Shown here: positions 2,368-14,848 of the stretch, piece after piece
How positions within the stretch are numbered: the first letter of the stretch is position 1
Layout of the letters: every line of letters begins with the position of its first letter
Assembly (NCBI GenBank): GCA_035498555.1
Contig: DATKAB010000013.1
Location: 1 to 32,575, forward strand
Length of the DNA: 32,575 bases
Reading direction: 5' to 3'
DNA from: Candidatus Sulfotelmatobacter sp.
GTDB taxonomy: Bacteria; Eisenbacteria; RBG-16-71-46
The notes under the pieces: model-generated
Told to the model about the DNA's origin: nothing
The model's input: the letters and a program-made list of their open reading frames with translations, nothing else
The model's database searches: none
Translations under genes and position numbers: made by a program

Positions 2368-3660
2368 CTAGCCGCTGAACAGCTCCTCGAGCCGCTCCAT
2401 GCCCTGAGCGATCGTGCGCGGCGAGGTGGCCCCCACCGACAGCCGCACCCAGCCGTCTTCGTTGGGAAGGGCGAACGCCTGGAACGGCACCACCGCGATG
2501 CCGGCCTCTTCGAGCAGCAGCCGGCGGATGTCCTCGTTGGTCGCGATCGAGCGGCCTCGAATCGTGACGCCAAGAGGAAAACGCGCCGAGAGATAGAGCG
2601 TCCCCTCGGGCGCCACCGCATCCACCGGCACGCCGCGCTCCTTGAGGTGCACGAAGCCGCGATAGAGCAGTTCGAGCCGCTCGCGCAGTCGGCGCTCCAT
2701 CGCCGCGCGGTAGTCGCGAAACGCCTGCGCGTCCCGGAGGAACTCGGCGGTCGCCACCTGCTCGGGCTTGGGCGCCCAGGCGCCGACGTGGCCGAGCAGA
2801 TCCGAGAGCCGCGCGGTCACCGCCGGATGCGCCACCGCCCAGCCAACCCTGAGCCCGGTGGCGGCGAGCGACTTGGAGATCGCGTCGATCAGCACGGTGT
2901 ACGGCGCCACCTCGGGCACCAGTGCGTTCGGCGTCGCCGGGTCGGAAGAGTCGAAGGCGGTCGACCAGTAGACCTGGTCGTACATCAGGAACACCGGGCG
3001 TTGCCCGGCCGGTTCGCGCCGTTCGTTCTCGGCCACGATCAGCCGGCAGATCGAGGCCAGGGTCTCTCGCCTCATGCCGGTGCCCGTGGGATTGCTCGGC
3101 GAGCACAGCGCGATCAGACGCGCGCCCGGGAGCACCCCCGCGATCTGCTCGGGCGTCGGATGGAAACCGTTTTCGCGCCGGACCTCGAGCGGCAGGGCTC
3201 GCGCGCCGGTCAGGTAGGCGTAGTGGTTGTTGTTCCACGACGGCACCGGGAACACCGCGGTCTCGCCCGGATCCACCAGCGTGCGATAGGTCGCGTAGAT
3301 CAGCGGCCGCGCGCCTCCCGCCACCACCACCGAGTCGAGCGGAACGTCGAGCTTCAGCTCGCGCGCGTAGAATTCGACGATCGCTTTGCGCAGCTCGAGA
3401 ATGCCGTTCGAGGGCGGGTAGTTGGAATTGCCGCCATCCAGCGCGCGCTTGATGCCCTCGACCAGCGGCGCGGGCAGCGGGAACTCGCGCGGGTCGAAAT
3501 CGCCGACGGTGAGATTCAGGATCTCCTTCCCTGCTGCCTGAGCTGCGCGCACCTCGGCGGCGATGCGCAGCACTTCGGAGCCGATCATGCCCTGCGCGAG
3601 GCGCGACAGGGAGCGATCGCTGACGCCGCTGGAGCCGCGAGCCGGGCTGGTCGAAGTCAT
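2368..3660 (-). CDS. PLP-dependent class I/II aminotransferase
   Basis: This 430-residue protein has the length and motif order of fold-type I aspartate-like aminotransferases. Visible motifs are N-P-T-G at residues 190-193, Asp228 and Tyr231 in M-Y-D-Q-V-Y (pyridine nitrogen and O3' contacts), S-K-S with Lys263 as the Schiff-base lysine followed by G-L-R-V-G (Arg271, phosphate), and Arg406 in W-V-R-L-S, the usual alpha-carboxylate arginine. An upstream in-frame ATG at 3858 was rejected because it lies deep inside the methyltransferase gene. The ATG at 3660 overlaps the methyltransferase stop as ATGA, implying coupled translation. It is the last gene of the operon. A Glu/Asp-using transaminase beside a glutamate-synthase-like enzyme is metabolically coherent, but the keto-acid partner cannot be read from sequence. 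Confidence 0.9.
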   Translation of the reverse strand: MTSTSPARGSSGVSDRSLSRLAQGMIGSEVLRIAAEVRAAQAAGKEILNLTVGDFDPREFPLPAPLVEGIKRALDGGNSNYPPSNGILELRKAIVEFYARELKLDVPLDSVVVAGGARPLIYATYRTLVDPGETAVFPVPSWNNNHYAYLTGARALPLEVRRENGFHPTPEQIAGVLPGARLIALCSPSNPTGTGMRRETLASICRLIVAENERREPAGQRPVFLMYDQVYWSTAFDSSDPATPNALVPEVAPYTVLIDAISKSLAATGLRVGWAVAHPAVTARLSDLLGHVGAWAPKPEQVATAEFLRDAQAFRDYRAAMERRLRERLELLYRGFVHLKERGVPVDAVAPEGTLYLSARFPLGVTIRGRSIATNEDIRRLLLEEAGIAVVPFQAFALPNEDGWVRLSVGATSPRTIAQGMERLEELFSG

Positions 3661-4544
3661 GAGTTCGAGTTCGGGGGCGCGACCGCCGCGCCCACCTCCG
3701 CATAGACAATGCGGGCCGTGCCGCTCACGCGCAAGCCGTCGGAGCGGCCGCGGAAATAGCGCTGGTTGACGCACCGCTCGTCGCAGTCCTCGACCCGGCC
3801 AAAGCCTCTGCTCCGCAGAGTGCCTTCCAGCTCGCCGGGAACGAACGACAGGATCCACGGCTCGCCGGCCGCGCGCACGCGCGCCGCCATCAGCTCGTAG
3901 AACAAGCGGCGGATCGGGCTCAAGAGGCGCGGCGCGACCGAGTAGTCGAACGTGACCGCGCTTCCGCCCGGACGCGCGGCGATGAACGAAAGGGTCTCGT
4001 CGAACGCCGCGCGCGTGAGGTACATGGTGACGCCGAGCCAGGCGAAGAACGCGGGTGCGTCCGCGTCGAAGCCGGCCGCGCTCAATTCCGCCGGCAGCTT
4101 CTGGCGCTCGAAGTCCACGGGCACGAAGCGGACGTTGGGCGGAGTCGCGATGCCGCCCTCCCTCAGCCGCCCGCGCTTCATACGCTGGGTGGCTGGATGA
4201 TCCACCTCGAACGCTCGCAGGTCGCGATGCGCTGCGCCGAGACGGTGAGCCGAGGTGTCGAGGCCCGCGCCGAGCAGCACGTACTGCCGCACGCCGCGAG
4301 CGATCGCCGCGGCGAGATGTTCCTCGGAAAAGCGGCTGCGGGCGACGAGGAACGCGCGCAGGTAGCGGGAGAGCCAGCCGCGATCGAAGCTCCGGGGATT
4401 GGCCTCGAGCTGCCCCCGGCGTTCGGCACCGATGACGCGCAGCGCCAGCGGATCCTCGAACACCAGCGGCCGATCGAGCAATTGATGCGAGGCGCGGCGC
4501 AGCGCGACGCGTGCGGCGGTGAGGCTGGCGCGATCCTGCTTCAC
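3657..4544 (-). CDS. SAM-dependent methyltransferase, LCM/TIGR00027-like
   Basis: This 295-residue protein starts at a GTG that overlaps the upstream gene's stop (GTGA). An ATG 38 codons further upstream gives only shadow sequence and was rejected. The N-terminus (D-R-A-S-L-T-A) resembles the D-x-x-S-x-T-A opening of the leucine carboxymethyltransferase-like family (PF04072/TIGR00027). Next come V-L-L-G-A-G-L-D-T, the SAM-binding glycine motif, and F-E-V-D-H-P, the acidic loop with the family's D-x-P signature. A-F-F-A-W-L-G-V-T-M-Y-L follows, equivalent to the E-G-x-x-x-Y-L motif but with Leu-Gly where Glu-Gly is usual. Family members methylate carboxylates or hydroxyls, often of natural products or polyketides. 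The substrate here is unknown; operon context suggests an amino acid or keto acid made by its neighbours (inference). Confidence 0.82.
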   Translation of the reverse strand: MKQDRASLTAARVALRRASHQLLDRPLVFEDPLALRVIGAERRGQLEANPRSFDRGWLSRYLRAFLVARSRFSEEHLAAAIARGVRQYVLLGAGLDTSAHRLGAAHRDLRAFEVDHPATQRMKRGRLREGGIATPPNVRFVPVDFERQKLPAELSAAGFDADAPAFFAWLGVTMYLTRAAFDETLSFIAARPGGSAVTFDYSVAPRLLSPIRRLFYELMAARVRAAGEPWILSFVPGELEGTLRSRGFGRVEDCDERCVNQRYFRGRSDGLRVSGTARIVYAEVGAAVAPPNSNS

Positions 4545-7500
4545 TCCGCGACGATCTGCGCCAGCTGTGGCGCCACCACGCCCTGCTGCTGCGCCGCTTT
4601 CGCCACCTTGAGCGGGATCAGCTTCACGAACGCTTCGTCGTAGCGCCACCGCTTCCACTCGCCTTCGAGACGCAGGGTGAAATGCTCGCCCTCGAGGCGA
4701 ATCGGCAGTCCGCGGCGGCGCGCCTCACGCGAGAGCAGGGGTGTCAGCTCGCGTGACCATTCGTCGAGCGTGATCTGCGACACGACGTTGCCCGAGTACT
4801 GCGCGGGATCGAGCTTCACCAGCGGATCGAACACGAACACGCGACCGGCGGCGGCGCCCGACATGAAGAACTTTCCACCGTAGGGCTTGGCGCGCAGCGC
4901 GAGCTCCCCGCGCGCGTCCGGCTTCCTCAGCCCCATCACCACGTGCAGCGAGTTGTCGCCGCCCGACATCAGGTACTCGAACGCGTATTCGTTGGGTGAG
5001 CCCCAGTGAATGGACTTGAAGCCCTGGGCCGGCGTCCGGCCGTCGGCGAGGAACACCTTGTTCTGGCCGGCGGCGGCGAAGCGAGAGCCCGAGTCCCACA
5101 CGCTGAAACTCGCGCCGTGCGCGGCGTAGGCGCCGGTGTTGAGGATGTCCTGCAGCACGAACAGTTCGCCCGAATCGGCCTTCATTCCAAGATGGCTCTG
5201 ACCTTGTCCATAGACCCAGATGCTCGCCCCCTCGAGCAGCGCCCCGATGAAGTCGCCGAACTCACGCCCGTACAGCTCGATCGTCACTCCGCGGGCCGCG
5301 ACGCCACGCGCGTCGCCGAGATTGGTGCCCACGTAGCGCGGGCCGCCGATGAACCCGTAACCGATCAGGTTGCGCCAGCCGAGCTCGACGGCGCGCGACA
5401 CGAAACGCGAAGCCGAATCGAGCCGGAACGACTCGCCCTTGAAGCCCGCGAAGTCGATCACCAGGACGTCGCGGGCGGGATCGGCCGGCGGCGCCAGGTC
5501 GTCGCGCGTGCGCAGAGTGACACGCATGTAGCGCGTGCCGCGCACCGGTTGTTGCAGCACTTCGAAGAGCGCCGGGATCTGATCGAACAGCCGATAGAGC
5601 GCGCCCTCCGGTTGCCCGCCCGCGTCTCGGCCGCCGTCGAGCAGATACTCGACGCTGGAGAGCGCCTTGGCCCCGAGACTCGCAAACGCGACGCGCTTTC
5701 TCAGCTCGGTGAGAATGCGGATCGCGGCGGCGCGCGCCGCGTCCCCCCGCTTCGCGAACTCGGGCAGCGCCTGCTCGGCCAGCATCCGCAGATCGGCGAA
5801 CTCGAGCGTGGCCGCGCGCTCCAGCGTGCGCTCCACCAGCGCCGCTCCCGGCGCGGGCAACAGGTCCTCGGGGCCGAACAGCCGTCCCGCGCTCATGCCA
5901 CCGGCGCCCTCGAGCAGCCGGCCGAGCTGCTGGAGGTGCTCGTTCACCACGCTCACCCAGTCGGGATTCGCCCGTTTCACGGCTTCCGCCAGGTATTCGC
6001 TCAGGTCGAGCTTTCCGCCGGCCCGATCCACCGGCACTTCCTCACCGAACCGGTTGCGCAGGTCCATCGCCCCGCTGCCCGGCGCCGTGAACGCCTCGAA
6101 CACGCCGCCGAAGTCCCGCCGCGCCGGATTGCCGCCCGGGCGCATGCTGAATCGGAGGTCGGCCGCGGCGTCGCCGAGCACGCCCTGCTGGTGCAGCACG
6201 CGCAGCATCGAGTCGGCGATCTTGGCTTCGCTGCCATTGGCCACCGCGGTGACGCCTGCCGTGCCGCTCGCCCCACCCGCGGCGCGCCGGCCGGTGTCGC
6301 GGCTCACGATGATCTCGTGCGGGCGAAGGAACTTGATGTCCATGTTCTCGCGGAAGCCCACCACGCGTCGGGTGCGCGACGCGCCGTCGGCGCCGCCCGC
6401 CGGGCCGCCTGACACGCGCCGCGACTCCACGATCGTGAACTTGTAGGGGCCGGTCGGCGTGAGCTGCACGTAGTTGGTCATCAGCAGCTCGAGCTTCCTG
6501 CGGCGCGCCTCGTCCATCGCCTTCAGGTCGAGCCCGGTGATCGGCGAGATGATCTGCGAGGCTTCTTCGGTGGTGAGACCCAGCACGCGCCGGGTGAAGT
6601 CCACCAGGTAGGCGGCGTACTCGGTGTCGGTGAGCGCCTTGCGCTCGTAGATCGAGTCGCCCGCATAGAGCGCGTGGCTCTCGCCCATCGAAGGATCGGC
6701 ATGCACGTAGCCGAACTCGTTGAGGAACGGCGAGGTCGAGTCCACGCCCACCTGCTCGCCGTTGTGCATGAGCAGAACGTTGTAGGCCTTGAACGGATGC
6801 GCGCCGGCCGGATTGCCGCGGCCCTCGGCGTCGATCGCGGGCGAGTTGGTCGGATAGCGATGATGCATGCCCCAGGCACAGGCGCGCAGCTCGAGGGTCT
6901 TGAGCGGACGCCCCTTGAACGTGTATTCCACGCCGCCCGCGTCGCGCACGCCCGGGTAGCTCGACCAGAACTGGTCGAAATCGAAGTACTCGGGAATGGT
7001 GTGCGTCCAGCCCGACATCTTGATGGCGCCAAGATCCTCACCGATCGACACGACGAAGCCGCGCCGCTTGGCGGCGAACTTCCCCGCCGGTGCGTCGTCG
7101 GGCCGGTGCGTGCGGTAGTAACGCGAATCCAGCAGATGCGCGAGCGCCGAGAAATATTCCTCGCGTACGTCGGCGACGAAGGCATCGAGCCGGTCGCGCG
7201 CCTCCCATCCTCCGCGCGCCTGGGGCGCGCCGCGCGCGCCGCCCGCCTCGCCGGCCGACGCCAGCGCCGCGCTCAGCGCCTCGGCGCTCAGATCGCCGTA
7301 CTTGGTGCGGCGCTGCAGCCAGTGCTCGCTCGCGAGCAGCGTGGCTCCGTAGCGATGCAGCACCTCGCGCTCCAGCTCGACGAAGAACAGGTAGAAGTCG
7401 CCGGGGTTCTCGCGCAGATCGGCGTCGCGCCAGCCGCCTTCGTGTGCGTACTTGGCCCGCACCGGCACGCGAAACGCGTCGAGCTTCTCGATCACCTCGG

Positions 7501-10500
7501 CGCGCTTCACCTCGCGGCCGCGAACGTCGAAAAATCGGCAGCCCTCGAAGTGGCCGAGCATCTCGCGCATGGTGTCGACGCGATCGGGCCCGATGGTGTT
7601 GATGATGACGCAGGTCTTCTCGCGCAGCGGCGCGGGCGCGAAGCCCGCGAAATCGATGCCGCCGCCACGATTGTTGCCGCCGTTGAAGGACAGGCGCGCC
7701 GATTCCCAGATCGCGTGCACGTTGACCGGCTCGGTCACCGCCAGCGAGCCGACACGGCAGGAGTCGTGTTCGTCGGCCTGCGCCGGCCGCCTGGTCGCCT
7801 CGCCGTGCTCCGGCATCTCGAGCAGGTCGGTGCGGCCGCGCAACTGCCGGATGTCGCTGAAGAGTGCCTCGGCGTCCGAAACTTCCCCGTCGTCGTCGAT
7901 CGCGCCGCGCTCGAGATTCAAGGCGTCGATCAGCACCGCGAGCTTCACCATGTTCAGCACGGTCCAGTTGCGGAAGCGCTGGCGCATCAGTCCGCGGTCG
8001 TTCTGCATGGTGAGTTCGGCCTTGGTGGTGATGCCACCGCGCGGACAATCCAGATGACAGTTGCCGCACTGGTTGCAACCGAACGCCACCGCCTTGCCGA
8101 TGCTCGCTTCCATCAAGGCGTCGGCGCCGGCGATCAGCACCTTGAGCATGTCGACTTCGCCGCGCAGCCCGCCCGAGGCGAACAGCCGCGTGCCGCCCTT
8201 GGCCCCGAAGGGCGCGCCATTCAGATCGCGGATGCTCTGGAGCGTGCCGGTCTTCTCGAGGTCCACCTTTTCGCCAACCAGCGCATGGTGGGTGTGCAGG
8301 ATGGTGCGGAAGATGTCGGGCCAGCCGACGTGCGAGGAGTCGGCGTGGTAGTTGCCCGAGCCGCCGAGACCCGAATCCACCAGCAGGTAGTCGACCACGA
8401 AGTTCGACCACATGCCGGCCGCCACGTAGCGCGTGTAATTCGAGCCGGTGATCTTGATGCCGCAGTAGTTGTGGTAGAGGAGCCACAACCACACCTCGGC
8501 CGGCATGTCCTCGATCGAGTAGATGTCGTGCTTGGGATCGGGTGACAGCGCGTCCGTGCCAACTGGAATGTTGCGCGCGCGGCTCACGGTGGGCGTGACC
8601 TTGGCGCCCGAGAGCCGCCCGCCCTTGCCGGGCTTCGCGCCCTGATTGATCTTGATCTCGACGTCGCGCACGCGCCGCAGGTCGACAGCCTGGATGCCGA
8701 AATGGCCGCTCGCCGCCTGCATGCTCTCCCACTTCCAGTCCTGGTCCGCGCTCAGTCGAATCGGCCCGCCTTCGCCCGACGAGGTCATCGACAGCCCGCT
8801 GTTGCCCTCGACGCGCGCGGTCAGGAAATCCTCCGACGCCGCACCCAGCGAGATGCTCGAGTGATTGACCGGCCCGTGCCACACCGGCTCTCGGAATCCG
8901 AAGCCGCTCAGCTGGTAGCCGGCCGGAGCACCGGCCCGCAGCGAACGGCGCAGGGTGACGGTGCCGTCCCGCGAGGCGCGCACCAGCGACAGCCCGTGGC
9001 CGCCATGACCCCGCGCCAGAAGCTCGACGCGGGTTTCGTCACCCTCGGCATCCAGCGCCGAGATCCACAGCGAGGCCCCGCTCGCCAGGGTCGATTCGAG
9101 CTCGGGCGTGGAATCGAGCGACTGATCGAATCCGCCCTCGCCATCGGCGGTGAAGCTCGCAAAGGTGACGAACGCGATCGACGAGCCAGGCTCACCCTCG
9201 ATCTGCAGCGTGACCTCGGAGCCCGCCGGCACCGCGCCCGGCCGAAGGAAACCGCGCGGGACCGCCAGCGAGATGTAGTCGAGCGACGACGGGTCGCGGC
9301 GCAGTCGCGCCAGCGAGCGTTCGAGCGAGCGGCGCGACAGCTTGAGCCCGATTCCGTCCAGCGACAGCGGACCCATGTCACTCTCGATGAAGAAATCATC
9401 GGTTCGCGGGAGCTGCCCCGCCGCCATCTTGTAGATCACCTCGAGATGATCGGCGCCCAGATTGCGATTGGAATTCTCGAGATGGTAGTTCGCGTTCCGG
9501 TGCGCCAGGATGCGCGCCGCATGCACCAGTGGCAGCTCGGGCGTCAGCTCGCGGAGCAACGACGTCACCTTGAAGCGCTCGCGGACGCCGGCCGGCACCG
9601 GCTCCGCGGCGATGCGCTTCGCGTTCAGGTCCGCGTTCAGCGCCCCGAACTCGCGCGTCGCGAGGCGGTCCACCTCGCGCACCCATTCCTCGGTCATGGT
9701 GATGGCCATGGTGTTGCCCGAGGTCTTCTGGATGTCGTCGATGCCCATGCACGACAGAAAGTCGAGGATCGAGTGCTGCCAGCAGGTCAGGGTATTGACC
9801 GCCTGATCGCGCAGCTCGTCGGGCGGGCGCGTGGCCAGAGTACGGAGCGCCGCCTTCGGGTCCGCGCCGTGATAGGCGTCGATCAGCTCGGGGCAGAGCG
9901 CGAGACCGGCGAGGTGCGTCATCGAGCCGCCGTTGGCGCCGAGCAAGACGGATTCGTAGACGGTCGCCGCCGAGGACTGCGTGTCGGTGTTGCCGCCGGC
10001 GCTGATCAACTGCACACGCGCGCGCAGGAAGCGCGCCTTGAGGAAGGCGTCCACGCGGGGCGTGAGCCGGTAGGACTTCTCGGGGCCCGAGTGATAGTGA
10101 ATGGCCGCGACGCCGTCCTGGCGCGCCGCGGTCTCGATCGCGTGCCAGAAGGCCGCCGGGTCGCCGCCGATCGGCAGATAGACCGAGATCAGCAGCCTGG
10201 GATTGATGCCGAGCACGCGCTCGACGTCGCCCGCCAGATCGCCGCTCCACTCCAGCTCGACGATGCGCGACCGGCGCAGCGCCTCGCGCAGCGTGTCGAA
10301 GCGCTCGCCTTCGCCGTCCAGCCACTGCACCATGTCGGCCGGAATGCGCAACATCAGGTGTTCGCCGAATTCGGAGAGCGCAGCGATGTGATCGAGATAG
10401 CGCTCGGCCTCGACGATCAGGAGCGTCCGGGTATGAAGGTCCTCGCCGGGATCGGCGGCCTCGATCGCCTGAAGGTAGGCGCGCTCCATGGTCTCGCCGT

Positions 10501-11140
10501 CGCTCCACGGCAGCGGCCCCACCAGCATCGGCATGTCGAGATGGATCGAGGTCAGAGTGCTCTGCTCGACACCGCCGGCGGTGCGGAACAGCACCGCCGG
10601 GTGTTTGCGCACGATGTCCCACGCGGTCGAGAACTCCTCCCGCAGGCCGTCATTCGCCGGATGCGTGATCGCGGCGTGCGAGAAGTACGAGCGCCAGAAG
10701 CCGTAGTGCCAGGCCGCACCGAGGGTCAGCGGCTCGTGCCGGTAACGCTCCTTCAGCAGCTTGTCGAGGTCGAACGAGCTGATCTCGAGCTGCGGGATCT
10801 CGCGCGATACCCGTGAATAGCGGCTGAGGAACAGCCGGCCCCGCTTCCCGCGGCCGGTCATCCAGAATCGTGCCTCGTCGATTCCCGCGCGCTCGAGCAG
10901 GAACGACAGCAGCCGGCGCTTGCGCTCGCGGTCCGCGACGCGCGGATGGTCGGGATCCACCACCAGCGACAGCAGGTCCTCCCACAGCCCGAGCTGATCC
11001 CGGAACGCGTGCGCTTCGGCGGCCGCGTCCCGACGTTGCCGCTCGAAATCGGGCGTCGACTTGAACGCGCCATCGCCGTTGGTGTCGGCGCCACCGGTGC
11101 TGGTCAGCTCGTCACGCAACCGTTCGATGCCGATGCTCAC
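4541..11140 (-). CDS. Permuted glutamate-synthase-like multidomain protein (2199 aa)
   Basis: The GTG start at 11140 overlaps the upstream stop (GTGA) and has AGGGGAG about 9 bases before it. Domains in order: residues 1 to about 500, a degenerate barrel-like region with the tail pattern of a GltB FMN domain (A-G-G-N-T-D near 378, L-G-A-N-G-G, a C-P-E loop, M-G-I-D-D near 470) but no Fe-S cysteine motif; about 640-755, unassigned beta-rich sequence; about 755-1100, the real GltB FMN barrel (S-G-E-G-G, S-G-H-F-G-I, I-N-Q-G-A-K-P-G-K-G-G near 830) with Cys1022, 1025, 1028 and 1032 (C-x2-C-x2-C-x3-C) for an iron-sulfur cluster; about 1128-1580, class II glutaminase (Cys1128, H-R-Y-P-T-N from 1427, H-N-G-E from 1459); about 1850-2060, the GXGXG helix domain. 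The motifs match archaeal-type GltB, whose alpha2, alpha1 and alpha3 parts are normally separate proteins. Canonical GltB is about 1500 residues with glutaminase first. Role inferred: ammonia or glutamate chemistry in the cytoplasm. Confidence 0.85.
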   Translation of the reverse strand: MSIGIERLRDELTSTGGADTNGDGAFKSTPDFERQRRDAAAEAHAFRDQLGLWEDLLSLVVDPDHPRVADRERKRRLLSFLLERAGIDEARFWMTGRGKRGRLFLSRYSRVSREIPQLEISSFDLDKLLKERYRHEPLTLGAAWHYGFWRSYFSHAAITHPANDGLREEFSTAWDIVRKHPAVLFRTAGGVEQSTLTSIHLDMPMLVGPLPWSDGETMERAYLQAIEAADPGEDLHTRTLLIVEAERYLDHIAALSEFGEHLMLRIPADMVQWLDGEGERFDTLREALRRSRIVELEWSGDLAGDVERVLGINPRLLISVYLPIGGDPAAFWHAIETAARQDGVAAIHYHSGPEKSYRLTPRVDAFLKARFLRARVQLISAGGNTDTQSSAATVYESVLLGANGGSMTHLAGLALCPELIDAYHGADPKAALRTLATRPPDELRDQAVNTLTCWQHSILDFLSCMGIDDIQKTSGNTMAITMTEEWVREVDRLATREFGALNADLNAKRIAAEPVPAGVRERFKVTSLLRELTPELPLVHAARILAHRNANYHLENSNRNLGADHLEVIYKMAAGQLPRTDDFFIESDMGPLSLDGIGLKLSRRSLERSLARLRRDPSSLDYISLAVPRGFLRPGAVPAGSEVTLQIEGEPGSSIAFVTFASFTADGEGGFDQSLDSTPELESTLASGASLWISALDAEGDETRVELLARGHGGHGLSLVRASRDGTVTLRRSLRAGAPAGYQLSGFGFREPVWHGPVNHSSISLGAASEDFLTARVEGNSGLSMTSSGEGGPIRLSADQDWKWESMQAASGHFGIQAVDLRRVRDVEIKINQGAKPGKGGRLSGAKVTPTVSRARNIPVGTDALSPDPKHDIYSIEDMPAEVWLWLLYHNYCGIKITGSNYTRYVAAGMWSNFVVDYLLVDSGLGGSGNYHADSSHVGWPDIFRTILHTHHALVGEKVDLEKTGTLQSIRDLNGAPFGAKGGTRLFASGGLRGEVDMLKVLIAGADALMEASIGKAVAFGCNQCGNCHLDCPRGGITTKAELTMQNDRGLMRQRFRNWTVLNMVKLAVLIDALNLERGAIDDDGEVSDAEALFSDIRQLRGRTDLLEMPEHGEATRRPAQADEHDSCRVGSLAVTEPVNVHAIWESARLSFNGGNNRGGGIDFAGFAPAPLREKTCVIINTIGPDRVDTMREMLGHFEGCRFFDVRGREVKRAEVIEKLDAFRVPVRAKYAHEGGWRDADLRENPGDFYLFFVELEREVLHRYGATLLASEHWLQRRTKYGDLSAEALSAALASAGEAGGARGAPQARGGWEARDRLDAFVADVREEYFSALAHLLDSRYYRTHRPDDAPAGKFAAKRRGFVVSIGEDLGAIKMSGWTHTIPEYFDFDQFWSSYPGVRDAGGVEYTFKGRPLKTLELRACAWGMHHRYPTNSPAIDAEGRGNPAGAHPFKAYNVLLMHNGEQVGVDSTSPFLNEFGYVHADPSMGESHALYAGDSIYERKALTDTEYAAYLVDFTRRVLGLTTEEASQIISPITGLDLKAMDEARRRKLELLMTNYVQLTPTGPYKFTIVESRRVSGGPAGGADGASRTRRVVGFRENMDIKFLRPHEIIVSRDTGRRAAGGASGTAGVTAVANGSEAKIADSMLRVLHQQGVLGDAAADLRFSMRPGGNPARRDFGGVFEAFTAPGSGAMDLRNRFGEEVPVDRAGGKLDLSEYLAEAVKRANPDWVSVVNEHLQQLGRLLEGAGGMSAGRLFGPEDLLPAPGAALVERTLERAATLEFADLRMLAEQALPEFAKRGDAARAAAIRILTELRKRVAFASLGAKALSSVEYLLDGGRDAGGQPEGALYRLFDQIPALFEVLQQPVRGTRYMRVTLRTRDDLAPPADPARDVLVIDFAGFKGESFRLDSASRFVSRAVELGWRNLIGYGFIGGPRYVGTNLGDARGVAARGVTIELYGREFGDFIGALLEGASIWVYGQGQSHLGMKADSGELFVLQDILNTGAYAAHGASFSVWDSGSRFAAAGQNKVFLADGRTPAQGFKSIHWGSPNEYAFEYLMSGGDNSLHVVMGLRKPDARGELALRAKPYGGKFFMSGAAAGRVFVFDPLVKLDPAQYSGNVVSQITLDEWSRELTPLLSREARRRGLPIRLEGEHFTLRLEGEWKRWRYDEAFVKLIPLKVAKAAQQQGVVAPQLAQIVAE

Positions 11141-13830
11141 TTTGCCGCTCCCCTTTCGAACTCCTCGAGCGCGATGAACCAGTCGCGGGTCGGCGCCTCC
11201 ATCACGCGCAGCGTCTGGCCGCCGTTCGCCTGATTGGCCGGGCACACCTCGACGCACGTGCCGCAGCCCACGCAGCGTTCCTGCGCGGTGGTGATCCAGC
11301 GCGGGTCGGCGCCCTCGTACTCGCGATTGGCCTGGGTCGGGCAGACCGCCACGCACGCGCCGCAATGAATGCAGGTGGCGGCCGGGCCGGCGTCGTTCTC
11401 GGCGCGCATCAACATGTAGCGCGCCACCCCCGGCAGCGAGGCGGGCGCGCGCTTCACGTAGCCTCCCGGACGAACGTCGAGGAAGTCGCGGAGATAGTGC
11501 GACGAACTGCGCACCGCGGCGACGATCGCGGTGTGGCGCTCCTTGTCGGGCGGGCGCCGGTCGTCCGAGAGCGTCTGCAGCTGCTCGTAGAGCGGCAGAT
11601 GCGGGATGCCGGCCTGGCAGACTTCCTCGCAGTTGCCACAGCGCATGCAGAGATCGAGCAGGACGCTGCCGATCGGTGACACGCCCTTGCCGGCGTACGC
11701 CCCCTCGCCGACGTGCGTGAGCATCTGCGGCAGGCGGATCTTCGATTCGTTGAAGATCGGGCAGACGCTGTTGCACTCACCGCAATTCACGCAGTTGAGT
11801 GCGCGCGCCGCGGCCACCTGAGTCACCGCCATGACGTGGCCGTCGGCTTCCATCAGCCCGCCAGTGGCCGAGCTGGCGGCGAATTTCGCTCCGACCTTCG
11901 CCGGCTCCCCGCGACCACGCGCCGGACCCGGGAATCCGCTCAAGATCGCGCGCGCGATCCGCACCAACGGCGAAAGAATGGTCGAGCCATAGACACGGCT
12001 CAGCAACCCCACCCCGGGCGCGAACGTCGCCTGCACCAGGCCTCCGAGCGGGCCGTGCAGCCGGAATCGCAGCAGCACGCCGCGGTTGACCAGATCGGCC
12101 GAATCCACGCCGCGCTTGACGCGCGCGAGGCGCGACACCTCTTTGCCGCCGAACCGCTTCCGTGCCCACGCCGACTGCCACCGCCCGAGCACGTACGGCC
12201 GCCCGCGATGCGAACGCATCGCCAGGTCCACCAGCGCCGGCGCGATCATGAGGTCGACCGCGAAGGATCCGCGCCGGTGGTCGGTGAGGTAGCCGGCGAT
12301 CACCAGCGCGGTGCCGTCGGCGAGCACGTAGACCTCGGCGTCGAGATCGTTACCGGCGTTGCTCGCCAGTCGCGCCGCCTTTGGAATGAAACGCACCACC
12401 TGATCGAGCGGCAGCACGATCTCGGCCGCGAGCATGCCGGGTCCCAGACGCTTGATCTGCTGCGGTCGGAAGCGTTCGGCGGCGAAGCGCACGCTCTCCT
12501 TCTCGAGCGCGCGCGGCGATCCCGGCATCTCGCCGATCGCCGTGGCAAACACGCGCGCCGCGTCGAGATCGAAGAAGTCCACGAAGAGATAGCTTCCGGC
12601 CTGAGCGCTGTCGGCGCCGGTCGCGGCGCCCAGCTCGTTCGGACTGGCGATGCGCCTCCAGGGCAGCGTGGCACCGTCGCTCAGCCTGGAGCCGCGCTGG
12701 CGCCAGTCGCGGCTGTCCTCGTCCTTCCACACCTCGCGCAGGTGATGGAGGTGCGAAGCCGACATCGCCTTCACGTTGGCCGGGGCGCCAAACCGCGTCC
12801 CCGACACGCCCGCCACCCAGCGTGCGGCCTCGAACGCGCCCATCGGCAGCGGAAATGCGATGAGAAACGCGCCGATCTCGGGTCGCGGCTCCACCGACAC
12901 CGTCAGGTGCGTGAGCATCCCGAACACGCCTTCGCTGCCGGCGAGATCCGCCAGCGTGATCGGCTCGAGCCCGTGCGCGGAGAACCAGCCGGCGCTCTCC
13001 TCCTTCGAGAGCGTGTGCCGGTGGTGGCCTTCGCCGGGCACGTCGAGCCGGCCGTCGTCGTGGAAGCGAAGGTGCTCGCCGCCCGGCAGCACCAGGTCGG
13101 CGGAGCGGACCGAATCGAGCGCGCGCCCGCGGCCGAACGCGTTCATGCCGATGCCGCCGGTCACGAACCAGCCGGCCAGCGTGCCGCCGAGATTCGACGG
13201 ATAGGCGCGCAGCGCGAGCCCGCGCTCGCCCAGCTTCTGGTGCAGCGTGCGGAGCCGCGTTCCCGCGCCCACCACCGCCACGCCGTTGCCGGCCTCGATG
13301 TCGATCGAGTCGAGACGCGAAAGATCGAGCGTCAGTCCGCCATCGTTCGGCACCGCGCCGCCCATTGCCGTGGAGGCCGCGCCGCGGAGCGTCACCGGCA
13401 CCTGGTTCAGCCGCGCCCAGCGCAGCGAGGCCGCGGCCTCGGCGACCGAGACCGGCTGGAAGATCAGATCCGGAATTGCCCGGGTGAGCGTGCGCGTGAA
13501 CAGTTTGCCCAGGTAGACGTTCTGGTCGCGGTCCGCTTCCTCGCGAACGAATGCCTCGGTGACCAGGCGCTCGGCCAGCGTGGCGGCGCGCGCGCCGCTC
13601 CGCGCGGCCGGGCTGTCGTCGGCGATGTTCTCGAGCGCCGCGAACAACGACTGCGCCAGCTCGCGGGTACGCGCGGGAGCCTCGCGCTGATCGAGCGCGC
13701 GCCCGTCATCCAGGAACGCGTTGAGGTCGGAGACCGCTGCCCGGATGATGCCGCTGCGCTGGTCGGGGCTCAGCCGAACGAAGGATTCGAGCGGCTGCTT
13801 GATTCGGCTCTGGAGTATGGAGTCGGTCAT
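11137..13830 (-). CDS. GlcD-like FAD oxidoreductase fused to four 4Fe-4S motifs
   Basis: An 897-residue flavoprotein. Residues about 120-290 form a PCMH/FAD_binding_4 domain: V-T-L-R-G-A-A-S-T and N-D-G-G around the FAD pyrophosphate site, then V-G-A-G-T-R-L and S-N-L-G-G-T-L-A-G. A long substrate/cap region follows. The C-terminus carries four cysteine motifs, each C-x2-C-x2-C-x3-C, beginning at Cys680, Cys728, Cys820 and Cys853. The first pair resembles GlcF or heterodisulfide-reductase-like clusters and the second an ordinary 2[4Fe-4S] ferredoxin. Family members oxidise 2-hydroxyacids such as lactate, glycolate or 2-hydroxyglutarate and pass electrons on. It is first in the operon and overlaps the glutamate-synthase-like gene, so it is the natural electron donor to that protein's FMN/Fe-S centres (inference). 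No Shine-Dalgarno precedes the ATG; an in-frame stop 22 codons upstream limits other starts. Confidence 0.87.
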   Translation of the reverse strand: MTDSILQSRIKQPLESFVRLSPDQRSGIIRAAVSDLNAFLDDGRALDQREAPARTRELAQSLFAALENIADDSPAARSGARAATLAERLVTEAFVREEADRDQNVYLGKLFTRTLTRAIPDLIFQPVSVAEAAASLRWARLNQVPVTLRGAASTAMGGAVPNDGGLTLDLSRLDSIDIEAGNGVAVVGAGTRLRTLHQKLGERGLALRAYPSNLGGTLAGWFVTGGIGMNAFGRGRALDSVRSADLVLPGGEHLRFHDDGRLDVPGEGHHRHTLSKEESAGWFSAHGLEPITLADLAGSEGVFGMLTHLTVSVEPRPEIGAFLIAFPLPMGAFEAARWVAGVSGTRFGAPANVKAMSASHLHHLREVWKDEDSRDWRQRGSRLSDGATLPWRRIASPNELGAATGADSAQAGSYLFVDFFDLDAARVFATAIGEMPGSPRALEKESVRFAAERFRPQQIKRLGPGMLAAEIVLPLDQVVRFIPKAARLASNAGNDLDAEVYVLADGTALVIAGYLTDHRRGSFAVDLMIAPALVDLAMRSHRGRPYVLGRWQSAWARKRFGGKEVSRLARVKRGVDSADLVNRGVLLRFRLHGPLGGLVQATFAPGVGLLSRVYGSTILSPLVRIARAILSGFPGPARGRGEPAKVGAKFAASSATGGLMEADGHVMAVTQVAAARALNCVNCGECNSVCPIFNESKIRLPQMLTHVGEGAYAGKGVSPIGSVLLDLCMRCGNCEEVCQAGIPHLPLYEQLQTLSDDRRPPDKERHTAIVAAVRSSSHYLRDFLDVRPGGYVKRAPASLPGVARYMLMRAENDAGPAATCIHCGACVAVCPTQANREYEGADPRWITTAQERCVGCGTCVEVCPANQANGGQTLRVMEAPTRDWFIALEEFERGAAK

Positions 13831-13924: not shown

Positions 13925-14001
13925 ACTATAGCAGAGGCCTTTGCCGCGGGGGTACCTGCCGCTGGCCGGTCCGGCGCCGCCGGACCGCGAGAGAGGCCTT
14001 T
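13925..14001 (-). promoter_or_regulatory. Candidate control region of the glutamate-synthase-like operon
   Basis: Reading the minus strand toward the operon, there is AAAGGCCTCT (14001-13992), a perfect 8-bp GC hairpin with a 3-base loop (13986-13968), a second copy of AAAGGCCTCT (13942-13933), and directly after it an extended -10 element TGCTATAGT (13933-13925). There is no good -35, as is typical of extended -10 promoters. The downstream repeat touches the -10, so a protein bound there could block or activate transcription. The hairpin lies after the rhomboid stop and may end that transcript, although no T-run follows it. The leader to the ATG at 13830 would be about 85-90 bases. Assignments are by eye. 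Confidence 0.35.
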
Positions 14002-14848
14002 ACTGGCTCAGCAGCAGCGTGGTCACTTTGACGAACGAGAGCGCGACACCGATGGCAGTGAGCGCGAGCAGGGCGAGCGCCAGCACCTGCACCGCAGGCG
14101 TTTCGCGCTTTTCGCCGAGCGGCTTCATGATCTGCGCGCAGATCCATCCGCCCGCGAAGCCGCCGGCGTGGGCGAAGTTGTTGACGCCCTGCATGAGGAA
14201 TCCGAACACGAACAGGATGATCGCCCACTGCCAGAGTTGCGCCCTCATCACCGAGGCGCCGGCGTGGCGCGAGTAGACGATGAGCGCGGCCAGCAGGCCG
14301 AAGATGCTGCCCGAGGCGCCGATGGTCGGACTGCCGGTGACCAGGTTGGAGACCAGGAATCCGGCCGCGCCGGCGATGCTGAAGATCACGAACGCGCGCG
14401 CCGGCCCGTAGACCTGGCTCACCACCGGGCCGAGATTTCGCACCCACATCATGTTGAAGAAGATGTGGAGCAGCGAGCCGTGCAGGTAGATCGCGGTGAG
14501 CAGCGTCCACCACCAGCCGGCGCGCCACGCCACGCCCCCGGTCATGCCGAGCTGGAACAGGGCGCGGGTGCTCGGCGCCAGCAGGTTGAACAGGTTGAAT
14601 CCGTTGGCGAACACCGCGCGCGGGTCGAGCGCCAGCGAAGTCGCGTAGAGCGCCACGCAGGCCGTCACGATCACCGAGATCAGGTCGATGTGATGGGCGG
14701 CGAAGAACCGCTGCAGCTTGGGCGCCGCGCCGAACATGCCGGGCCGCCACGCGCCGCAGAACGGGCAGCGTTCCTCCGACACCCCGATCAATCGGCCGCA
14801 CTGCGGGCAGAGCATCGAGCCTTCGGCGGGTGACATGGCGCGCAGCAT
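14000..14848 (-). CDS. Rhomboid-family intramembrane serine protease with N-terminal zinc ribbon
   Basis: A 282-residue polytopic membrane protein. The cytoplasmic N-terminus holds a zinc-ribbon pattern, C-P-Q-C (Cys14, Cys17) and C-P-F-C (Cys28, Cys31). About six or seven membrane helices follow. The rhomboid signature is complete: H-G-S-L-L-H-I-F-F-N-M in the HxxxN helix, G-A-S-G-S with catalytic Ser179, and N-N-F-A-H-A-G-G with catalytic His227. It should cleave transmembrane segments of unknown substrates. The start is uncertain: ATGs at 14848, 14836 and 14815 are all in frame, and none has a strong ribosome site; the last has GAAGG nearby but would remove little of the zinc ribbon. It lies upstream of the flavoprotein operon on the same strand, 169 bases away. 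Confidence 0.88.
   Translation of the reverse strand: MLRAMSPAEGSMLCPQCGRLIGVSEERCPFCGAWRPGMFGAAPKLQRFFAAHHIDLISVIVTACVALYATSLALDPRAVFANGFNLFNLLAPSTRALFQLGMTGGVAWRAGWWWTLLTAIYLHGSLLHIFFNMMWVRNLGPVVSQVYGPARAFVIFSIAGAAGFLVSNLVTGSPTIGASGSIFGLLAALIVYSRHAGASVMRAQLWQWAIILFVFGFLMQGVNNFAHAGGFAGGWICAQIMKPLGEKRETPAVQVLALALLALTAIGVALSFVKVTTLLLSQ

Follow-up and report, generated by a model that had tools for sequence, protein, structure and literature searches.

The window analysed here, a 32,575-nucleotide stretch of DNA from an Eisenbacteria genome, carries on its reverse strand (−) a single stop-free open frame of 2,199 residues at 4541–11140. Its GTG start at 11140 is backed by homologues that start VSIGIE or MSIGIE. 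The features referred to below are, in window coordinates:

4541–11140 (−): 2199-residue glutamate synthase-like protein (barrel, FMN barrel, class II glutaminase, GXGXG), from the open frame, alignment and homologues in three phyla
9716–10666 (−): residues 159–475, first TIM barrel, degenerate, the counterpart of the N-barrel in split relatives (hhalign, tree, model)
7967–8872 (−): residues 757–1058, FMN/synthase barrel (PF01645) with INQGAKPG (PF01645 match, hhalign)
8045–8077 (−): residues 1022–1032, four-Cys iron-sulphur site C-x2-C-x2-C-x3-C, invariant where covered
7760–7810 (−): residues 1111–1127, variable linker just before Cys1128 (lengths in homologues, alignment)
7757–7759 (−): Cys1128, predicted N-terminal nucleophile, invariant in nine fused and three split glutaminases
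6221–7759 (−): residues 1128 to ~1640, class II (PurF-type) glutaminase with inserts; R1428, N1460, G1461 and D1505 conserved
4760–5488 (−): residues ~1885–2127, GXGXG/β-helix region (colinear hhalign match with split relatives)
11137–13830 (−): 897-residue FAD_binding_4 protein with four C-x2-C-x2-C-x3-C motifs, directly upstream, with a stop codon overlapping the large gene's GTG start

From its N-terminus, the chain comprises a degenerate TIM barrel, an FMN/synthase barrel, a class II glutaminase and a GXGXG region. The sole Pfam match is Glu_synthase (PF01645, residues 757–1058, E 1.3e-44), at 153.3 bits against a curated cut-off of 20.4. The domain-profile search proposed in the original prediction thus recovered the FMN part only; the remaining domains were placed by profile–profile comparison with split relatives (in which the parts are encoded by separate genes) that Pfam does recognise. 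These comparisons bear out the central description in that prediction, of one 2199-residue chain ordered FMN barrel, glutaminase, GXGXG. More than 700 residues do lie in front, the degenerate TIM barrel among them, and the motifs are where they had been placed (INQGAKPG at 831, C-x2-C-x2-C-x3-C at 1022, HRYPTN at 1427, HNGE at 1459, and GYGFIGG at 1927 for a GXGXG region put at ~1925). The glutaminase, rather than being N-terminal, begins at residue 1128, behind the FMN barrel. The closest solved structures are GltB chains, with the match confined to the FMN barrel, and the GltB equivalog profile (PRK11750/NF008730) scores the window chain at 84.8 bits, below its cut-off of 1047.

A scan of the genome collection for the fused gene returned 11 loci, in Eisenbacteria, Actinomycetota (Thermoleophilia) and one Planctomycetota genome; in genome searches it was present in 7 of the 47 genomes of its own phylum, in 7 of the 299 from class Thermoleophilia and in 1 of the 199 from Planctomycetota. 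The carriers are uncultured bacteria of soils. These homologues include complete and partial sequences, the full-length ones sharing the architecture at ~62–71% identity and the divergent or partial ones being at least 59% identical. Recurrence of the same order in homologues, which the original prediction had looked to for support, is thus found in several genomes from three phyla; the domain order is therefore real, and the identical architecture rules out an assembly artefact. A chance open frame is ruled out by the 59–71% identity across phyla together with the codon-position GC pattern of a real gene. Near position 4730 of one Eisenbacteria locus (L018, genome G035), the fused gene has a frame change at about residues 1442–1479, possibly a sequencing error or a broken gene. 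No account of the 2,199-residue fused architecture was found in the open-access literature.

The FMN barrel is the best-conserved region of the protein. In hhalign comparisons it matches the FMN domain of E. coli GltB (probability 99.4) and those of the split systems (>99%), and it retains both the synthase motif INQGAKPG and the stretch SP-x-P-x-HDIYSIED. The first barrel matches the N-barrels of the split systems (probability 93.3, E 2.6e-7), in which the two barrels match each other at 99.8%. In a tree of the barrels, which carries a long-branch warning, first barrels of fused and split origin group together (100/96) to the exclusion of every FMN barrel, a pattern that one old duplication would give, and the fused FMN domains form their own deep branch, not nested within the split ones. 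The four-Cys motif is kept in the first barrel of one split system (L064) and lost from that of the fused protein, which is probably a non-FMN, central-domain-like barrel. An AlphaFold model of residues 1–1127 (pLDDT 55; alignment of 11 sequences) has a well-modelled region at ~180–460, with confident strands and helices, which resembles TIM barrels of many families; Foldseek matched it to TIM barrels at E about 0.003 or worse, with none below 0.001. The model supports only the assignment of the first barrel as a TIM barrel.

From Cys1128 to near its end, the C-terminal half of the window protein is colinear with the split glutaminase-GXGXG protein (hhalign probability 100, 821–826 columns). 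Alignment of nine fused and three split glutaminases, in which the window sequence is 26–30% identical to the split ones, gives 62 invariant columns of 520, including Cys1128, Arg1428 of HxRYPT, Asn-Gly 1460–1461 of HNG, and Asp1505 of TDTE. A split-glutaminase profile ranks all decoys and 120 shuffles below E. coli PurF (2.3e-6) and GlmS (1.5e-5). With the fused-glutaminase profile alone, PurF was not found by hmmsearch and reached only 46% in hhalign, and the class II assignment of the fused glutaminase therefore goes via the split relatives. Cys1128 aligns with Cys1 of the split relatives and, through them, with that of PurF; on this alignment the glutaminase start is Cys1128, well ahead of HRYPTN, a point overlooked in the original prediction. 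Loss of the nucleophile (Arg near 1364) had been considered; alignment of DSCRVGS at 1126 with the Cys of the split forms led to its rejection. For the GXGXG region, PF01493 gave no direct match on the window protein but matches the colinear L064 protein (E 3.6e-10), and hhalign of the fused glutaminase, first barrel and GXGXG region against single E. coli GltB domains gave nothing significant. The model of residues 690–1700 (FMN barrel plus glutaminase) has a pLDDT of 42.7, from an alignment of nine sequences, and gave no usable Foldseek match. An insert in the glutaminase at residues ~1169–1300 (window 7240–7640) is longer than in the split relatives and is the best-modelled part of the otherwise poor AlphaFold model.

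Class II amidotransferases are Ntn hydrolases, in which self-cleavage makes the nucleophile the new N-terminus (PMC9140057). Cys1128 is internal in the gene product, and it is internal in every intact fused homologue. Because class II glutaminases need a Cys at a free N-terminus, cleavage is predicted between Ser1127 and Cys1128; the catalytic Cys can probably work only if the giant chain is cut beside it, and the predicted products are two chains of about 1,127 and 1,072 residues. Homologues have between 15 and 62 linker residues ahead of the conserved DS that precedes Cys1128, and DSC itself is fixed. Self-cleaving two-chain Ntn hydrolases such as glycosylasparaginase similarly have an internal nucleophile bared by cleavage of a precursor, as is predicted here (PMC9140057), but are stand-alone hydrolases, many with Thr or Ser nucleophiles, and not parts of flavoenzymes. 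The most informative new point on the fused enzyme is that its nucleophile lies in mid-chain, with the maturation that this implies; the original prediction had centred on a permutation of domains, and this more telling consequence was absent from it.

Three other genomes of the phylum have split systems (L063, 2528–7888; L064, 2068–9537; L065, 2712–8224). In L064 (genome G017) the gene order is FAD/Fe-S protein, double-barrel FMN protein (983 aa) and glutaminase-GXGXG protein (900-aa frame), and Pfam assigns two Glu_synthase stretches, a GXGXG domain and, below cut-off, GATase_6. In L065 a double barrel is followed by a glutaminase-GXGXG protein, and in L063 the two barrels are separate genes. 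The split operons resemble the fused chain in having two barrels and then a glutaminase-GXGXG protein, with the glutaminase Cys behind a leader; they differ in using at least two genes and in the length of this leader, which is short compared with ~1,127 residues in the fused form. The fused chain follows the split operons part for part, an arrangement that the joining of genes in operon order explains without shuffling inside a GltB; it is therefore better understood as such a fusion than as a true permutation. The fused FMN domains branch deeply outside the split ones, and these particular operons are thus not necessarily its source. The description of the chain as permuted therefore holds against canonical GltB and fails against the same-phylum split operons, where the barrel(s) likewise precede the glutaminase-GXGXG protein. 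The label archaeal-type is loose, the nearest relatives found being bacterial and the fused FMN domain being a deep branch of its own. Directly upstream of the split glutamate synthase in L065 are a response regulator with an ANTAR-like end (8100–8768) and a GAF sensor kinase (8678–10354), their domains named from reading the sequence, which suggests regulated expression of that split enzyme.

Canonical GltB is ordered glutaminase (1–422), central, synthase and β-helix (PMC8097209, also for GltS chemistry; order also PMC5775586). The fused protein shares with it the PF01645 FMN barrel, the glutaminase and β-helix domain kinds, and a second degenerate barrel like the central domain. In contrast to GltB, its glutaminase is third rather than first, four cluster Cys are present instead of the three-Cys [3Fe-4S] site, and no gene for GltD, the NADPH/FAD β subunit that partners GltB, adjoins it at the locus. 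The GltS of Ignicoccus hospitalis (Igni408/Igni407), with a published unusual domain architecture (PMC2614490), is arranged GXGXG, ferredoxin, FMN with a separate GlxB glutaminase, whereas in the window protein the glutaminase is fused inside. The archaeal three-gene glutamate synthase, with separate glutaminase, FMN and GXGXG proteins, is set apart from this single frame by its gene layout.

The FAD/Fe-S gene is directly upstream in every fused locus that covers the DNA concerned, with 49–64% protein identity across loci where mostly covered, and is the sole neighbour of the fused gene kept across phyla. By sequence, the best solved relatives of its product are FAD-type lactate dehydrogenases. 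This FAD/4×[4Fe-4S] protein is likely to be the electron partner that replaces GltD, as a putative donor. Upstream of it lies a rhomboid protease-like gene (14000–14848, −), which is kept in three other Eisenbacteria loci. The genes downstream of the fused gene, encoding a class I/II aminotransferase (2368–3858, −) and a leucine carboxyl methyltransferase-like protein (3657–4658, −), are not kept in relatives.

PF01645 is represented by the fused gene alone in seven of the phylum's 47 genomes and by the split type in three others; the remaining 37 have none. The fused gene is likewise the only PF01645 protein in five Actinobacteria carriers, and the Planctomycetota carrier has two further FMN-type proteins. 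All 47 encode an ELFV-dehydrogenase (Glu/Leu/Phe/Val) family protein, from the family of glutamate dehydrogenase. Glutamine synthetase (PF00120) is absent in all seven carriers (G000, G025 and G033–G037; G000 is given as 100% complete) compared with 3 of the 40 non-carriers, and a GSIII profile built from sister genomes found no synthetase in the seven; a match in G034 (1.7e-4) spans only 68 C-terminal positions and was not counted. Sister genomes without the fused gene have GSIII. Fisher's test for the association gives 1.9e-6, and 1.0e-4 within the family, for genomes that are related, and the association may reflect one or two events. G017, with its split system and FAD/Fe-S neighbour, is one of the three non-carriers without the synthetase. 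The synthetase is present in the Thermoleophilia and Planctomycetota carriers, so that the link depends on lineage, and a rule that carriers lack the synthetase was rejected on the Thermoleophilia. Within the seven Eisenbacteria carriers, its absence is odd and counts against a glutamine-consuming enzyme.

We consider it reasonably probable that the gene encodes a one-precursor glutamate synthase-type Fe-S flavoenzyme, cut at S1127/C1128, fed by glutamine and receiving electrons from the FAD/Fe-S protein. What the sequence itself shows is which parts are present, in what order, how well they are conserved, and that the FAD/Fe-S gene is linked. The single precursor would fold into the first barrel, the FMN barrel with its four-Cys Fe-S cluster, the class II glutaminase and the β-helix, and would be cut between Ser1127 and Cys1128, probably by itself, freeing the nucleophile; the two resulting chains would stay together. 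Cys1128 would hydrolyse glutamine, and the released ammonia would be channelled to the FMN site. There it would combine with a 2-oxo acid, most probably 2-oxoglutarate, and reduction would yield the amino acid. Electrons would pass from the upstream FAD/4×[4Fe-4S] protein to the Fe-S site at 1022–1032, and not from a GltD-type NADPH subunit. Glutaminase activity, cleavage, channelling, the 2-oxoglutarate acceptor and the direction of electron flow are taken in this scheme from knowledge of the family.

The chain could instead remain whole, with a glutaminase that is never freed and is inactive or structural, the enzyme using free ammonia. The internal position of the Cys in all intact fused homologues, for which a protease site is not known, would fit such an enzyme, as would the possible scarcity of glutamine in the Eisenbacteria carriers, which lack glutamine synthetase. 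However, all core class II residues are invariant across fused and split forms at 26–30% identity, which speaks against a dead domain, in which one or more losses would be anticipated, and we regard this reading as unlikely. That the Eisenbacteria carriers lack the synthetase, while close relatives lacking the fused gene have GSIII, also favours a different but related enzyme, a reductive aminase that uses some other amide donor or acceptor or runs in an unusual direction, over a glutamine:2-oxoglutarate enzyme. N-methylglutamate synthase is a relative of glutamate synthase with a different donor. Glutamate could be made otherwise given the ELFV-dehydrogenase in all 47 genomes, an FAD_binding_4/Fe-S partner stands in the place of GltD, and the FMN domain is a deep branch. 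Against this, a GS-GOGAT pairing is possible in the Thermoleophilia and Planctomycetota carriers, which have the synthetase, and INQGAKPG and SP-x-P-x-HDIYSIED are retained; we hold the reductive aminase to be decidedly doubtful.

A narrower form of the idea appears quite improbable: that in Eisenbacteria without glutamine synthetase the protein may be a self-cleaving glutamate synthase relative working outside GS-GOGAT, with another amide donor or acceptor or in a redox-driven reaction that the FAD/4×[4Fe-4S] protein feeds or drains. Split relatives with the same part order, one of which also has the FAD/Fe-S neighbour, could imply an ordinary split bacterial glutamate synthase whose genes have fused, with nothing functionally new. 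The fused family is not nested in the split one in the FMN tree, however, and a nucleophile behind ~1,100 residues means that maturation must differ, at least in scale, which makes this reading very improbable.

If the preferred reading of a glutamine-fed enzyme matured from one precursor is true, the parts of glutamate synthase work in another linear order, and the self-activating enzymes of the Ntn type would gain a flavoenzyme precursor of ~2,200 residues whose glutaminase is switched on by a cut in mid-chain. The same reading would also point to an enzyme of the GOGAT type that draws on an FAD/Fe-S oxidoreductase, not on NADPH. The duplicated-barrel clade bears on whether the central domain of GltB arose by duplication of an FMN barrel, and the fact that every Eisenbacteria carrier lacks glutamine synthetase raises a sharp, testable question about metabolism.
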